The notes beneath the pieces were generated by a model that had not been told where the DNA came from, did not search any database, and saw only the letters and a program-made list of their open reading frames with translations. Position numbers and translations under genes: made by a program. Shown piece by piece: positions 6,592 through 30,159 of a stretch of DNA of 35,311 nucleotides (position 1 is its first letter; each line of letters begins with the position of its first letter). Origin of the DNA: Symploca sp. SIO2E6 (GTDB taxonomy: Bacteria > Cyanobacteriota > Cyanobacteriia > Cyanobacteriales > Coleofasciculaceae); NCBI GenBank assembly GCA_010672425.1, contig JAAHGR010000017.1, positions 11,089 through 46,399 on the forward strand. The letters run 5' to 3'.

Positions 6592-8220
6592 ATGAATCTG
6601 CTGTCCTTTCTTGTGCGCTACTCCTGGAAAACGGTAGCAGTAGCGATCGCTACTGGTTTTGTGAGTGGTGGTAGTAGTGCTGGACTGATTGCTCTGATTA
6701 GTCGTGTCTTTAGCCAAAGCGATTCTTCTTCGCCGACATTACTCGCCTGGGGTTTTGTGGGATTGACTGTGGTAGCACTAATGACCAGTATTATTACCAG
6801 AGTAATCCTGATTCACCTCTCTCAAGACGCAATTTTCCATCTACAGATGCGTCTGAGCCGTCAAATTCTAGCGTCGGAGTTGAGTCATCTAGAACAGTTG
6901 GGCTCCCCTCGCCTATTGGCAACCCTAACAGAAGATGTGCAAACAATTGCTAATGCTGTGTTTGTTGTACCCTTCCTCTGTATTAATGTAGCAATTGTAA
7001 TTGGGTGTCTGGTTTACATCAGTTGGCTCTCTGGGAAAGTATTGCTGATGGTTTTGGGCTTATCAGCGATCGCGATGGGTAGTTGTAGGGCACTGTTGAA
7101 AAAAGCAAGTCAGTTACTTGCCCTTGGTAGAGAAGAGCAAGACTTACTATTCAAGCATTTTCGTACCATAACCGAAGGTGTCAAGGAACTCAAACTACAT
7201 TATCACCGGCGCCAAGATTTCCTCACCGAAGAACTACAGACAACAGCTGCCAAGTTCCGTCGTCATAATGTTTACGGTCTAACCCTGTTCGCCGCCACTG
7301 ATAGTTGGGGCAAGTTCATCTTTTTTTTTGCAGTCGGCTTCGTGATGTTTGTTCTCCCCCATTGGGTTGTCATCGACTCTCAAACCCTTTCTGGTTATGT
7401 CTTGACTTTTACCTATCTGATTGGGCCAATGGAAAATATTATCAACAAACTGCCAATCCTGAGTCGAGCTAATGTTGCTTTAAATAAGATTGAGACTCTT
7501 GGCTTATCCCTAGCCAGTCGAGCCGAGGTAGCAACATTTCCACCTGAGATATTGTCTGAATGGCACTTTTTGGAACTCAAGGGGGTAACTAATACTTACT
7601 ATAGTGAGCAAGAAGATGTTAACTTTACCCTTGGTCCGATTGATCTGAGGCTGCAACCAGGAGAAATAGTATTTATCATTGGTGGTAATGGCAGCGGTAA
7701 ATCTACCCTAGCTAAGTTGATTACCGGACTCTACATTCCAGAATCGGGAGAAATTTGGTTAGACAAGCAGCCCATTAACCAAGAGAATCGAGAGTGGTAT
7801 CGCCAACATTTTTCCGTGGTTTTCTCTGACTTCTATTTGTTTGAACGGCTCCTAGGGTTGCAGCAAATTAATTTAGATACTCAAGCTCAAGAGTATCTTC
7901 AGCAACTTCAGCTTGAGCATAAAGTCAAGGTCAAAGAGGGAGAACTTTCCACTACTGCTCTGTCTCAAGGACAGCGTAAACGACTAGCTCTACTTACAGC
8001 TTACCTGGAAGACCGACCAATTTATCTATTTGATGAATGGGCAGCGGATCAAGACCCCATATTTAAGGACATCTTTTATACAGAGTTTCTACCCAAGCTC
8101 AGAGAGCAGGGCAAAATGATACTGGTAATCAGTCATGATGACCATTACTTTCATTGCGCAGACCGAATTGTCAAGTTGGACTATGGTCAAGTTGAGTATA
8201 ACAGGGAAATTAAGAATTGA
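6592..8220 (+). CDS. Cyclic-peptide-export-type ABC transporter, permease-ATPase fusion (542 aa)
   Basis: This is a half-transporter with an N-terminal membrane domain (residues ~1-310, about six helices) and a C-terminal nucleotide-binding domain. Walker A is GGNGSGKST, the signature is [12 protein letters not shown], and Walker B is [12 protein letters not shown], followed by the H-loop ISHDD. The DEWAADQDP and ISHDDHYF wording is characteristic of the cyclic peptide transporter family (SyrD/PvdE-like), which exports peptides or siderophores across the inner membrane. All ATPase motifs are intact. No peptide synthetase or precursor gene is nearby, so the substrate is unknown. The final codons (REIKN, stop) merge into the downstream heptamer array. 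Confidence 0.85.
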
Positions 8221-8358
8221 GAATTGGGAATTGGGAATTGGGAATTGGGTATTGGGAATTGGGAATTGGGTATTGGGTATTGGGTATTGGGTATTGGGAA
8301 TTGGGAATTGGGTATTGGGTATTGGGTATTGGGTATTGGGTATTGGGTATTGGGAATT
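8214..8358. repeat. TTGGGAA/TTGGGTA heptamer array (about 20 copies)
   Basis: A 7-bp tandem array with two interspersed unit variants begins inside the last codons of the ABC exporter gene. Because 7 is not a multiple of 3 it is open in several frames on both strands, which creates spurious open frames of ~90-110 codons. It is followed at 8362-8405 by an octamer array (CCTTGTAT and variants). Confidence 0.85.
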
Positions 8359-8426
8359 CTTCCTTGTATCCTTGTATCCTTGTATCCTTGTCTCCCTTGT
8401 CTCCCTGCTCTCTGCTCCCTTACTTT

Positions 8427-9248
8427 TCACCGCTTACCATTAGTCACCCGCTCAATCAGGGCCACAACAGCAGAACGAGTAAGCTTCTCTTGACCATTAT
8501 CTAAAACATCAAGAGTTGCATGAGCCAAAGTAAGCGGAATTTGGCAAAAGCCTAAAGCCGGTCCATTGGGTAGAGCCTTGGTATAGGCATCAGCAAGAGC
8601 TAGATTCCGGCGAGCATAAGCTTGCATATCATCTTCAGTCCAGCCATTGGGAAAAAAATCGACCCCCCTTACTCGGTCTTCCTTATAGTTCCGTAAAATA
8701 TTGACAGCCTGTAAGCCCCTACCAAAACCAATAGCATGGAGACGGTTAGTTTGGGTATCATCATACCAAGCCCATAAGTCAGAAAGTAACAAGCCGACTG
8801 CACCTGCTACTCCAAACGTATAGCGATCTAAATCAGCTTCGGTATCAATTTCCCAATTATGCTCAGCCCAATAAGCCATTCTATCTGCCATGGCAGCTGT
8901 AGCATCCCAAATCCGAGGCGCAATGGTCTCAGGTGCTAATTTTGCCCATTCTCCCACTCGAATAGTTACTTCCGCTAGCTGACTATCGTAGCTACTAAAT
9001 CCTAAGAACATTTGATCAAGGGTGAAGCCGTCAACCGCAGCCTGTAAGTTTGTGCTAATCGTGCGTAACAGTTTTGCCTTCGTGAAGTTATCCAGTTTTG
9101 GATGGTCTTCAATTTCATCAATAGCACGCATACAAAGATAAGCTGATGCCACTGCTTCCTTGAGTCTTAGAGGTAAACGATTGATAGGGATGTAAAAAGT
9201 CCGACTAGTTTCTTTAAGAATCTCCAATGCATCTTTACAGACATTCAT
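8427..9248 (-). CDS. Squalene/phytoene synthase family protein (273 aa)
   Basis: The family is head-to-head prenyl transferases that join two C15 or C20 diphosphates to make squalene- or phytoene-type products. The first aspartate-rich motif is DEIED (residues 44-48), preceded by SRTFY (15-19). The second region reads [13 protein letters not shown] (183-195), in which the usual first Asp is Asn187 while Asp191 is kept; related proteins with FFPNGW-type continuation seem to share this. At 273 residues it is shorter than typical CrtB (~310), so it is more likely a squalene/dehydrosqualene-like or uncharacterised branch than the main phytoene synthase. The gene is soluble-type, monocistronic and followed by repeats. 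Confidence 0.8.
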
Positions 9249-14272: not shown

Positions 14273-14288
14273 GATTTTATGAAAAAAT

Positions 14289-14395
14289 AAGGAATAGGGA
14301 ATGGAGAATAGAGAATGGAGAATAGAGAATGGAGAATGGAGAATGGAGAATGGAGAATGGGGAATAGGGAATGGGGAATAGGGAATGGGGAATGT
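14289..14395. repeat. GGAGAAT/GGGGAAT heptamer array
   Basis: About 15 imperfect 7-bp units lie between the sensor kinase gene and the response-regulator start codon. They occupy the place where the regulator's ribosome-binding site would be and extend its open frame artificially. Confidence 0.8.
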
Positions 14396-14444
14396 CGAAT
14401 TATTATATGACAAAGATGACATTCTTAGGTCTACAGACTTCTAT

Positions 14445-20547: not shown

Positions 20548-20606
20548 GGAATAGGGAATTGAGAATTGGGAATTGGGAATTGAGAATTGAGAATTGGGAA
20601 CAGTGA
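20518..20606. repeat. GGGAGCA/GGGAATA/TTGAGAA heptamer array overlapping the fabD 3' end
   Basis: The 7-bp units change sequence gradually along the array. The first four or so units are translated as the end of FabD, and the rest lies in the fabD-plsC spacer. Confidence 0.75.
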
Positions 20607-20612
20607 GTTGAC

Positions 20613-20745
20613 CTCATTACTCATTACTCATTACTCATTACTCATTACTCATTACTCATTACTCATTACTCATTACTCATTACTCATTACTCATTACTCA
20701 TTACTCATTACTCATTACTCATTACTCATTACTCATTACTCATTT
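20613..20745. repeat. CTCATTA heptamer array, 18 perfect copies plus one variant
   Basis: This is the longest and most uniform array in the window: units start every 7 bp from 20613, and the 19th (20739-20745) ends in T instead of A. Read in the plsC frame it would encode a seven-residue repeat (LLITHYS), which explains the apparent long N-terminus of PlsC. It ends nine bases before the likely GTG start of plsC. Confidence 0.9.
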
Positions 20746-20754
20746 AGTCATTTT

Positions 20755-25936: not shown

Positions 25937-25982
25937 TTAGGTGTTAGGCATTGGTGACAAATTTAAGGCTGTGAACTAATTG

Positions 25983-26030
25983 TCAACTCGCTATTTACAA
26001 TTTGCAACAAATACGTAAAAAGCGAGTTGA
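25983..26030. repeat. 10-bp perfect inverted repeat between two genes
   Basis: TCAACTCGCT (25983-25992) pairs with AGCGAGTTGA (26021-26030) across a 28-nt loop. No U-tract follows, so it may be a weak terminator for the upstream gene or a regulatory site before the AAA-like locus. Both are guesses. Confidence 0.4.
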
Positions 26031-26180
26031 GTAAATAAGTTCAGAGCTAAGTAATCCCGAATTTTTCTCTAATTTATTGCTGTCACCGACTTATCACTAA
26101 CTTGTTACTGAGTTCACTTTTTGAGCAGAAAAAACAGCTATGCTTGGAGCAAGGTCTGATTAGCTTGCCTGAGATGAACC

Positions 26181-27065
26181 ATGCCCAAGTCTCTTAAAGT
26201 GTCTCAACAGTACATTACCAAGGTGAAACATGCCCTTCACCGTAATGGTTTTGGCCGTCAGATAGATTTAGCAGTCGATTTGGAGTTATGTACCGACACT
26301 ATCAGAAAGTTTTGCAACGGCTATCCCGTCAGTTGTAATAATTTTATGGAAATTTGTCACCGCTTGGCTCTGGATGTGAAGGACATTGCTGATTTTGGGG
26401 AGGAACCAGAAAGTCAGGGTGCAGTTCCAATAGGAACTGTTCGTAGTACAGAGGATGGTAAGTCTGCATTGGATGCTCAGTTATACGTGGAACGTCCTCC
26501 CATTGAAGCAGATTGTTACCAAGGGATATTGCAGCCTGGAGCACTGATTCGGATTAAAGCACCCAAGCAGATGGGAAAAACTTGGCTGATGGACAAGATT
26601 TTGCATCAGGCGGCGAGTCAGGGTTACCAAGCAGTGCCGTTAAATCTGTTACAAGCAGAGCAAGGAGTGATGGCTCATCTGGATAAGTTCCTCCGTTGGT
26701 TATGTACTAGGGTGAGTCGGCGGTTACGGCTGCCTAATCAGATAGTGGATTATTGGGATGAAGGGATTGGCAGTAATGATAACTGCACCGCTTACTTTGA
26801 AGAGGCGATTTTGGCCAAGATTGACAGTCCTCTAGTGTTGGGCTTAGATAATGTGGATCAGGTATTCGGTTATCGGGAAGTTGCCCCAGACTTCTTTCGT
26901 TTGCTCCGTTCCTGGTACGAGGATGCCAGAATTCTAGAAGTTTGGCAAAAGCTGCGGTTGGTGGTAGCTCATTCCACGGAAGCTTATAAGTCTCTGGATA
27001 TCAACCACTCTCCCTTTAATGTAGGATTACCGATTGAGTTGCCGGAATTTACCGGCGATGGGTAG
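26181..27065 (+). pseudogene. N-terminal half of an AAA-like (AAA_35-type) ATPase, truncated at the C-terminus
   Basis: Residues 1-70 form a small helix-turn-helix-like domain (GFGRQIDLAVDLELCTDTIR, then KFCNGYPV). From ~100 comes the AAA-like domain common in cyanobacteria: LYVERPPIE, Walker A KAPKQMGKTWL, Walker B LVLGLDNVD, then a stretch ending GLPIELPEFT. Homologs continue from LPEFT for another ~200 residues, but here the frame ends four codons later (GDG, stop). From the same point a different AAA-like paralog continues in another frame. I infer a deletion that joined two paralogs and truncated this one. The ATP-binding half is intact, so a partial protein could still be made. The stop overlaps the ATG of the next frame by 8 bp. 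Confidence 0.65.
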
Positions 27066-28434
27066 CCAGGTGAGTCCCGATGAGTGGTATAAGGGTATCG
27101 TCTACCGAATTATGAGAAGTTTGGGGTTTGACCGCAAGGTTAACTGGCGCAGTTGGTGGGAGAAATTGGATTTTTTATCCCCAGTACAGCGGTTGAGTGA
27201 GTTTGTGGATGAGGTGTTGCTGGAGTCGGTGGCGCAACAGCTGGCTGGGGAAGGGAAAGGAAAGATTGTTATTTTTGTGGATGAAATTGATAGTGTGCTG
27301 AGTTTTCCTTTCCCCACAGATGATTTTTTTGCTCTAATTCGCGCTTGCTATAACCAAAGGGTAGATAATCCAGCTTACAATCGCCTCACGTTTTGTCTGC
27401 TGGGGGTAGCGACACCATCAAATTTGATTGAGGATAAACGACGAACACCTTTTAATATTGGTCGAGCAATTGAATTGAATGGTTTTGAGTTGGCAGCAGC
27501 TCAACAAGGGTTAGCACCAGGATTGGCACAGAAGGTGGATGAACCGGAAATGATGTTGGCAGAAATCTTGGCTTGGACAGGGGGACAGCCATTTTTAACA
27601 CAGAAATTGTGTCAGTTGGTAGTATTGAAGGCAGAAAGTAGGAAGCCGAAGGTATCTGAGTTAGTACAACAATATCTGATCAAAAATTGGGAATCCCAGG
27701 ATGAGCCAGAGCATTTAAGAACAATTCGCGATCGCCTTCTCAAAAATGAGCAACAAGCTGCTCAACTATTAGGTCTGTATCAACAAATTTTGCAGTGGGG
27801 TAAAGTGAAAGCAGATGATAGTCCTGAACAAATGGAATTGCGCTTATCAGGGCTGGTAGTTAGCCAGCAGGGTCAACTAAAAGTATATAACCGTATTTAC
27901 GAGTTTGTTTTTGATCACCATTGGCTTGCCCAAACGCTAGCAGATTTGCAACCCTATGCCCAGCCCCTAGCTGCCTGGTTAGCTTCCAATCGTCAGGATG
28001 ATTCTTGCTTGTTGAATGGGCAATCCTTAAAGAAGGCATTGGAATGGGCAGCTGAGAGAAGGTTGAGTATAGAAGAGCATAATTTTTTGTTTGCTAGTCA
28101 AGCATCGGACATACAAAAAAGGGTTCCTCTTGTATTGCAAGAATTACAACAAGAGGCTGTACAGACTCCTGAAACATTGGGTAAGCAGTTTTCCGCATCT
28201 ACTTCATCTCCGTGGAAACGACTCAGACGTAGTCAAATTACTATTGATGAAGCACTGCAATTTTTAGTTGACCCTCAAGGAATTGTCAATCAGGGCAATT
28301 TAGATCCAGAAGTTAGCTATCGGTTTTACCGCAATTTTCCCTATGATTTTCGCCCTGTCATTCGGGAGCATCCCATTTTGGAAAAAACATTGCCAAAAAA
28401 ACGACATGGCAAGGGTTTCAGCTATATTAAATGA
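27058..28434 (+). pseudogene. AAA-like C-terminal half fused to the N-terminus of a GspE/PilB-type ATPase; ends inside a MITE
   Basis: The frame begins inside an AAA_35-type domain of the kind often fused to WD40 repeats: GSQVSPDEWYKGIVYRI, IVIFVDEIDSVLSF (Walker B), DDFFALIRACYNQR, LLGVATPSNLIEDKRRTPFN and WTGGQPFLTQKLCQLV. The preceding P-loop portion is absent. From ~380 the sequence changes to SSPWKRLRRSQITIDEALQF and SYRFYRNFPYDFRPVI, which continues in frame into the downstream ATPase once the inserted MITE (28364-28461 plus one 8-bp duplication) is removed. The last 23 residues and the stop codon come from the MITE. ATG 27058 is used; a TTG at 27034 extends it by eight codons. Confidence 0.65.
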
Positions 28435-28461
28435 GACAACTCGCCAAAATGGGATGCTCCC
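28364..28461. mobile_element. MITE, 98 bp, 18-bp perfect terminal inverted repeats, 8-bp target duplication
   Basis: The termini are GGGAGCATCCCATTTTGG (28364-28381) and its exact complement (28444-28461). TGTCATTC is duplicated on both sides (28356-28363 and 28462-28469). An 8-bp duplication is compatible with ISL3- or IS66-type transposition. The interior of 62 bp has a small hairpin (TTGCCA/TGGCAA) and no gene. The perfect ends and duplication suggest a recent insertion. It lies inside coding DNA. Confidence 0.85.
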
Positions 28462-29926
28462 TGTCATTCCTCTATTGCTGTGGCGAAACTGCTACTATCT
28501 GGGAAGCTCTACAAATGTATCGTCTGCTAAAATTCATCAGCTACAAGCTCGTACTGGCACTGATATCGAAGTAATTACCATTGCGGAGGAGAGCTATCGC
28601 GACTGGCTGTATAAGCAAAAGATTGATACTGTTTGTGTTAATTCCACACACTTACTTGAGTTTTTTAAAGTAAAAGAAGAAATAGAAGACATTAGTACTT
28701 TTGTTGAGATGTATCTCTTAAAAAGTAAGGACACGACTGAACAACTCAACGTCCTGATTGCTAGTGCAATGTATAACCGTGCCAGTGATATTCATCTAGA
28801 ACCCACCGACAAGGGTTTAAGAATTCGCTACCGCATTGATGGTATGTTGCGGAATATTGTTAATTCGCCTCAGGGAATTAGCCGCAAACTAATTACTGCT
28901 CTCAAGGTTATGTCCGAGATTGACATTACTGAAGTTCGTCTTCCCCAAGATGGAAGAATCATGAAGAACTACATAGCTAGCTCAGATACAGAATTACGGT
29001 TAGATATGCGGGTCAGTACCGTTCCCTGTATGCATGGAGAAAAGGCTGTGATTCGTTTACTGCCCCAGAAAAATCCCTTTAGTAGCCTCCAAGATTTAGG
29101 ATTTACGCAACTGGCTTTAGCAAAGTACAACAATTGGCTCAGACAAGCTCAAGGATTAGTTATTATCACTGGACCTACCGGTTCTGGCAAAACCACGACT
29201 CTCTACACCAGTTTGCAAGCTGTGAATGAGGAATTTGTCAATGTAGTGACGATCGAAGATCCAGTAGAGTATGTATTATCTGGAATTACCCAAATTCAAG
29301 TAAATGAGACAGTGGGTATGACCTTATACACTGGGTTAAGAAGTATTTTGCGTCAAGACCCAGACATTGTTATGGTGGGAGAAATCCGGGATGAAGAAAC
29401 AGCAGAGACCGCAATTCGAGCAGCACTAACTGGTCACCTAGTTTTTACCACCCTACATACGAATGATGCAATTTCTGCTATCCCAAGGATCAAAGGTCTC
29501 AAAGTTGATCCCTACTTGATTAACGATGCACTCCTCGGAATTACTGCCCAAAGATTAGTCCGAAAAGTTTGTCCACACTGCGCAGAACCCTACAAACCGA
29601 CTGAAGAAGACTTGCGGTATCTAGGCATAGAACGAAAGCAGGCTCAGCCAGAAAAATGGCGCAAGGGTCGAGGTTGTGCCAACTGCTTTAATTCAGGATA
29701 TTTGGGACGGCAAGCAATCATTGAACTGCTCAACATAGATCCAAGAGTGAAGAAATTTATCGAAGGTCAGACAATGACAATACAGGATTATCTTAACCAA
29801 AGTAACTTTAACTCGTTTCGGGTGGCAGCAATTGAAAAGGTAACAACTGGGGTGACCACTATAGAAGAGTTGCAACGGGTGTTACCTGAGAATGCCATAG
29901 ATAGTGGTTGTAAATTGGATAATTAA
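28406..29926 (+). CDS. GspE/PilB-type secretion or pilus assembly ATPase, 5' part replaced by a MITE (506 aa)
   Basis: This is a hexameric ATPase powering type II secretion or type IV pilus assembly at the inner membrane. Walker A is GPTGSGKT (residues 256-263), the Asp box is TIEDPVEY, Walker B is DPDIVMVGEIRD, the His box is LTGHLVFTTLHTNDA, and the zinc-binding cysteines are C389/C392 and C424/C427. The catalytic core is complete. The first ~18 codons (MARVSAILNETTRQNGM) are encoded by the inserted MITE, which supplies the ATG at 28406. Native sequence starts at LPVIPLLLWRNCYYLGS, and the true N-terminus is in the upstream frame. The gene is an orphan without other pil or gsp genes nearby. 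Loss of the N-terminal domain may abolish docking to the partner protein. Confidence 0.85.
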   Translation: MARVSAILNETTRQNGMLPVIPLLLWRNCYYLGSSTNVSSAKIHQLQARTGTDIEVITIAEESYRDWLYKQKIDTVCVNSTHLLEFFKVKEEIEDISTFVEMYLLKSKDTTEQLNVLIASAMYNRASDIHLEPTDKGLRIRYRIDGMLRNIVNSPQGISRKLITALKVMSEIDITEVRLPQDGRIMKNYIASSDTELRLDMRVSTVPCMHGEKAVIRLLPQKNPFSSLQDLGFTQLALAKYNNWLRQAQGLVIITGPTGSGKTTTLYTSLQAVNEEFVNVVTIEDPVEYVLSGITQIQVNETVGMTLYTGLRSILRQDPDIVMVGEIRDEETAETAIRAALTGHLVFTTLHTNDAISAIPRIKGLKVDPYLINDALLGITAQRLVRKVCPHCAEPYKPTEEDLRYLGIERKQAQPEKWRKGRGCANCFNSGYLGRQAIIELLNIDPRVKKFIEGQTMTIQDYLNQSNFNSFRVAAIEKVTTGVTTIEELQRVLPENAIDSGCKLDN

Positions 29927-29947
29927 GCTACATATAGCTTAATTTTT
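29921..29947 (+). terminator. Predicted intrinsic terminator of the GspE/PilB-type gene
   Basis: A 10-bp perfect stem (AATTAAGCTA 29921-29930 with TAGCTTAATT 29935-29944, 4-nt loop) runs into TTTTT. The gene's TAA stop codon is part of the stem. Confidence 0.5.
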
Positions 29948-30159
29948 GAGTTAGTCTAATTGGCGATCACTAACACAACAAGGTGATAGTCAGAGACAAC
30001 AACCATTAATTCGCCATATTTAGTGGTTTAAAAAATAACTACACTATATATATGGCTTGACAAATTTCACCTCACTTTAACTGGTCACCAATGTGTTAAG
30101 TTTTAGGTTTTATTACCAAATCCGGGGAGAGCCAGTCCTCTTCAATGTCTATAGGTTTC

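Follow-up and report, generated by a model that had tools for sequence, protein, structure and literature searches.

Can the insertion of a 98-bp MITE make two genes out of one? The question is raised by a locus in the window analysed here, a stretch of 35,311 nucleotides from the cyanobacterium Symploca sp. SIO2E6, in which such an element interrupts a frame that joins an AAA_35 gene fragment to a GspE/PilB-like ATPase. The initial annotation saw in this a recent insertion that had turned a single gene into two overlapping ones, a possible route to domain separation. Its sequence observation is confirmed, and its interpretation is partly supported. Very probably the locus shows no more than insertional truncation of the ordinary kind, in a rearranged region and at the expense of an accessory ATPase that the cell can do without.

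The element lies at 28364-28461 (features are given on the forward strand of the window, the duplications having no strand). Re-reading of the sequence bears out the reported terminal inverted repeats (TIRs) and flanking duplication: 28364-28381 and 28444-28461 are 18 nt long and 100% complementary, and the 8-bp target-site duplication TGTCATTC is present at 28356-28363 and again at 28462-28469. The element contains no coding gene, 98 bp being below the size of a transposase gene. The further copies that the annotation had proposed to look for were readily found. A search of the same genome gave 40 matches, of which about 30 are additional full or near-full copies with 85-97% identity, and nearly all the complete ones among them have the identical 98-bp boundaries, followed by exact 8-bp duplications whose sequence differs from copy to copy. 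These copies, duplications and shared boundaries place it beyond doubt that the element is real. The family is also present in both same-genus genomes and in several genomes of the same taxonomic family, the latter copies being mostly more diverged. One copy in the window's own genome (L016 1-130, contig C730) has 12-bp flanks, accattgtaatg and cattacaatggt, that are mutually reverse complementary, with no direct duplication, reflecting either recombination or an assembly artefact. Another (L252 168-731, contig C25) lies inside an ISKra4-type transposase fragment and has no matching duplication.

The ends of the element point to its origin. Extended to 24 bp, the TIR bounds two 1,773-bp elements in one sister genome (G017) and one 1,471-bp element in another (G002), all flanked by 8-bp repeats and carrying a transposase whose frames are broken or overlap. 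The C-terminus of this transposase, SIGSGAVESAVKQIS...QLRCAYLNGQLAI, was recognised by eye as that of a fragment in the window's own genome. This 147-aa fragment, which lies beside the TIR, matches the ISKra4 model NF033572 with E = 1.7e-32, a partial match that is under the full-length cut-off. In the ISMich2 group the transposase is encoded in two frames (PMC3942029), by way of two ORFs and a -1 frameshift; in one damaged copy here, no intact one having been found, the transposase ORFs overlap in a -1 relation. Cyanobacteria are among the hosts of the p-MULT 4 elements (ISAzba1, ISMich2 and ISKra4), whose ends are 18-39 bp long and whose repeats measure 8 or 9 bp (PMC3942029); the repeats here are 8 bp and the TIR is at least 18 bp. 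Since its ends match those of ISKra4/ISMich2-like insertion sequences in sister genomes, the element can be classed on sequence grounds as a MITE of the ISKra4/ISMich2 (p-MULT 4) group, and would be moved in trans by a transposase of that type. The copies document a MITE family with such ends in one cyanobacterial lineage.

What the insertion does to the reading frame is largely as had been reported. Once 28364-28469 (106 bp) is deleted, the stretch from 27058 to 29926 reads through as 921 codons in one frame, with a single stop at its end. The insert thus adds 106 bp, or 1 mod 3, and shifts the frame. The upstream frame runs into its first in-frame stop at 28432-28434, position 69 of the element; the annotation had this position right, but the codon reads TGA, not TAA. 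It had also placed the start of the downstream ATPase at the ATG at 28406-28408, which is indeed in frame with the ATPase but is not the sole candidate, because a second ATG within the MITE (28454-28456) and one in host DNA outside it (28343-28345) are in frame too. From the MITE-borne starts an N-truncated product could be made. The gain of a stop on entry together with an ATG in the exit frame is not remarkable, since mononucleotide-shuffled elements provide both in 18% of cases. What is supported is that a mobile MITE, by an insertion that is recent in the evolutionary sense, shifted the frame and truncated both sides.

Was the rejoined frame ever one gene? The ATPase itself is clearly recognisable. 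In the part that remains downstream of the MITE (28470-29926), Pfam PF00437 (T2SSE) matches with E about 1e-122 over profile positions 10-370 of 370, the Walker A motif (GPTGSGKT), the Walker B region and the CxxC motifs of the conserved tetracysteine arrangement are intact, and PDB matches of the catalytic part are to GspE and PilB/PilF; the score is below every NCBIfam equivalog cut-off. Upstream of the MITE, at 28177-28360, lies the severed N-terminal region of the same ATPase family (TLGKQFSASTSSPWKRL...FRPVI), so that the first ~60 residues of the subfamily's N-terminal region have been cut off. A TTG at 28177 aligns with the position of the relatives' start codons. The 33 ATPase homologues, found in relatives and elsewhere in the same genome, are without exception separate genes. 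Measured between stops they span 540-628 aa; they start ~60 residues ahead of the point where the MITE inserted, and share the conserved N-terminal region 'S-W--L---I---EAL--LVD--G-----LD--V--RFFR-F-----LPPVIPLLLWR'. None of the 33 is fused to an AAA_35 domain. An AlphaFold model of the full-length Trichocoleus ATPase, considered for the fold of this N-terminal region, had a mean pLDDT of 39 and was discarded.

The same answer is given by a 121-residue probe that covers the end of the AAA_35 part and the N-terminal region of the ATPase. Its matches in relatives are of AAA_35 type or of ATPase type, separately, and no single protein among them spans both. As far as the genomes examined show, the rejoined frame from 27058 to 29926 is a private chimera. 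Position 27058 marks the edge of a fragment and no ancestral start, and the frame of 921 codons does not represent an ancestral gene. Since one cannot tell whether the fusion or the MITE came first, it may be that a single gene of 921 codons was at no time expressed, or did not even exist. The claim that two genes were made out of one is not supported by these results, nor is the suggested route to domain separation, the ATPase standing alone in all 33 homologues. Separate genes in relatives that lack the element were what the annotation had itself named as evidence against its reading; the other such sign that it had named, homologues that naturally start at MARVSAIL, was seen in none of the 33. 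That the two sides of a MITE fit together perfectly in frame does not make them the halves of a former single gene, and here it is the homologues that reveal the chimera.

The upstream part of the locus is itself composite. The gene designated A' (26181-27065) belongs to AAA_35 but follows the 331-position profile only as far as position 202, where it is truncated. DNA similarity to its paralogues ends at ~27053, where it abuts B' (27058-28159), an AAA_35 fragment joined in frame to the ATPase. B' matches the AAA_35 profile only from position 79 on: ~80 N-terminal residues are missing, and with them the P-loop (paralogues have NSRQMGKSS upstream), as is any C-terminal effector. Of the parts that A' and B' lack, AAA_35 paralogues of this genome have both in full. 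Apparently a deletion formed the A'/B' join at ~27053 (within 27040-27065), removing the C-terminal third of the first gene and the ~80 N-terminal residues of the second. Homology of B' extends to ~28159, and ATPase homology starts within ~20-45 bp of there. Together with the limit at ~27053, this means that the MITE is not the only event to have shaped the locus, and that there have been two joins or more, among them A'/B' and B'/ATPase. AAA_35 matches number about 50 or more in this genome, and many form neighbouring A-B pairs in which the B genes often have varied C-terminal effectors, such as WD40 repeats or periplasmic-binding-like domains; this pair system is worth separate study.

Comparison with relatives places these genes on an accessory island. 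In a same-genus genome, G001 (L245), the whole A'-B'-MITE-ATPase island (window 25937-30156) is missing: the same flanking genes are present, and a low-complexity spacer of ~0.4 kb separates them. In G002, no DNA match to the island was found downstream of the upstream neighbour, and a nitrilase gene lies near the contig end. The search for an empty site that the initial annotation had recommended thus gave no exact DNA-level empty site in these close relatives. The spacing in G001 marks the island as accessory, and the ATPase gene seems dispensable. An intact ATPase paralogue is present in the same genome (contig C499), and the orthologue in G020 has been broken by another element, with loss of its middle part (L147 4054-7177). 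From its MerR-like recombinase and TnpB-like ORFs we interpret that element as IS607-like; a search by inverted repeats for the ends of this insertion gave none. Elsewhere in the window, short tandem repeats at 8135-8443, 14280-14422 and 20587-20750, which translate to repetitive peptides, look like the typical cyanobacterial kind.

The favoured account of the locus runs as follows. A MITE that is not autonomous, and that a transposase of the ISKra4/ISMich2 type would have moved in trans, landed in an accessory GspE/PilB-like ATPase gene, within the sequence that codes for the N-terminal part, and duplicated 8 bp there. Owing to the frame shift, the upstream frame now stops at the TGA within the element and the ATPase has lost its conserved first ~60 residues. 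Other events, before or after the MITE, also degraded the locus, with an apparent deletion joining the neighbouring AAA_35 genes A' and B', and B' becoming joined to the ATPase. The outcome would most likely be loss or reduction of function in a redundant gene. Two observations count against this account. The window's own genome was found to hold no intact autonomous insertion sequence, only five transposase fragments. In addition, the catalytic region bears no signs of decay: it has no stops, its motifs are intact, its pairwise dN/dS against the paralogue is ~0.16 (with dS near saturation), and the ATPase branch is no longer than its sister's. A catalytic part that is still constrained implies either that the damage is recent or that the truncated product is still useful, and recent damage is favoured.

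In a rival account the MITE provides a working new start, so that an N-truncated ATPase is made from 28406, 28454 or 28343 and keeps some function. The in-frame ATGs, the uninterrupted frame and the intact catalytic motifs allow for this, and there is a weak promoter-like match (9/12) at 28401-28428. That match, however, would initiate transcripts downstream of the 28406 ATG, and the number of promoter-like matches in the region (n = 3) is not clearly above that in shuffles (mean 1.2, sd 0.9). The long TIR hairpin in the RNA (z = -4.7) could hamper translation, random sequence yields a stop and start as often as noted above, and ~60 residues conserved in the family are gone; we consider a working new start unlikely. 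A broader proposal, that the element carries ‘portable start codons’ in its ends and that insertions of its family regularly create new N-termini, here that of a working N-truncated motor ATPase, is more doubtful still, though five of the six exit frames of the MITE have an ATG that is open to the element end. If it were true, a working motor ATPase would here have been freed of its own N-terminal region.

The constraint on the catalytic region would also be expected if a single functional AAA_35-ATPase gene had been split by the MITE into two overlapping, translationally coupled genes. The frame does rejoin exactly, and the overlap geometry of ATG 28406 and TGA 28432 could permit coupling. 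Nevertheless, the fused gene occurs in no relative, the AAA_35 half has neither P-loop nor N-terminus, the whole locus is missing from a same-genus genome, and no Shine-Dalgarno-like motif was apparent by eye before 28406, which makes this the least probable of the explanations and a highly implausible one. It is also very improbable that assembly error produced the insertion or the join between A' and B'. The genome is in 1,437 contigs and has many AAA_35 paralogues and MITE copies, but the exact 8-bp duplication on both sides of the MITE points to a true insertion, and A' and B' meet at positions that are non-homologous, in a join not repeated elsewhere. Insertional truncation thus stays the preferred reading of the locus.

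How does this locus compare with known systems? Its ATPase shows a strong likeness in the catalytic part to the GspE/PilB assembly ATPases, and differs in having its N-terminus cut by the MITE. The element's family resembles the ISMich2 and ISKra4 groups of p-MULT 4 in the conserved terminal cytosine at its ends and in its cyanobacterial hosts (PMC3942029), whilst the element itself has no transposase and has the ends alone in common with those insertion sequences. Nezha and other cyanobacterial MITEs, as they are cited in PMC10969869, are similar to it in kind, and according to the same review in-frame fusions caused by MITEs within genes are no rarity (PMC10969869). A close functional parallel is MITEAba12 of Acinetobacter, also a small MITE that disrupts genes and introduces premature stops (PMC6382973). 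Its ends match ISAba12, its duplications are of 9 bp and its sequence is unrelated to that of the element here. It is mobilised by a co-resident insertion sequence and its near-end start codons could make fusions (PMC6382973). MITEAba12 thus has the same double property, of a stop together with a start, as the element within the ATPase gene.
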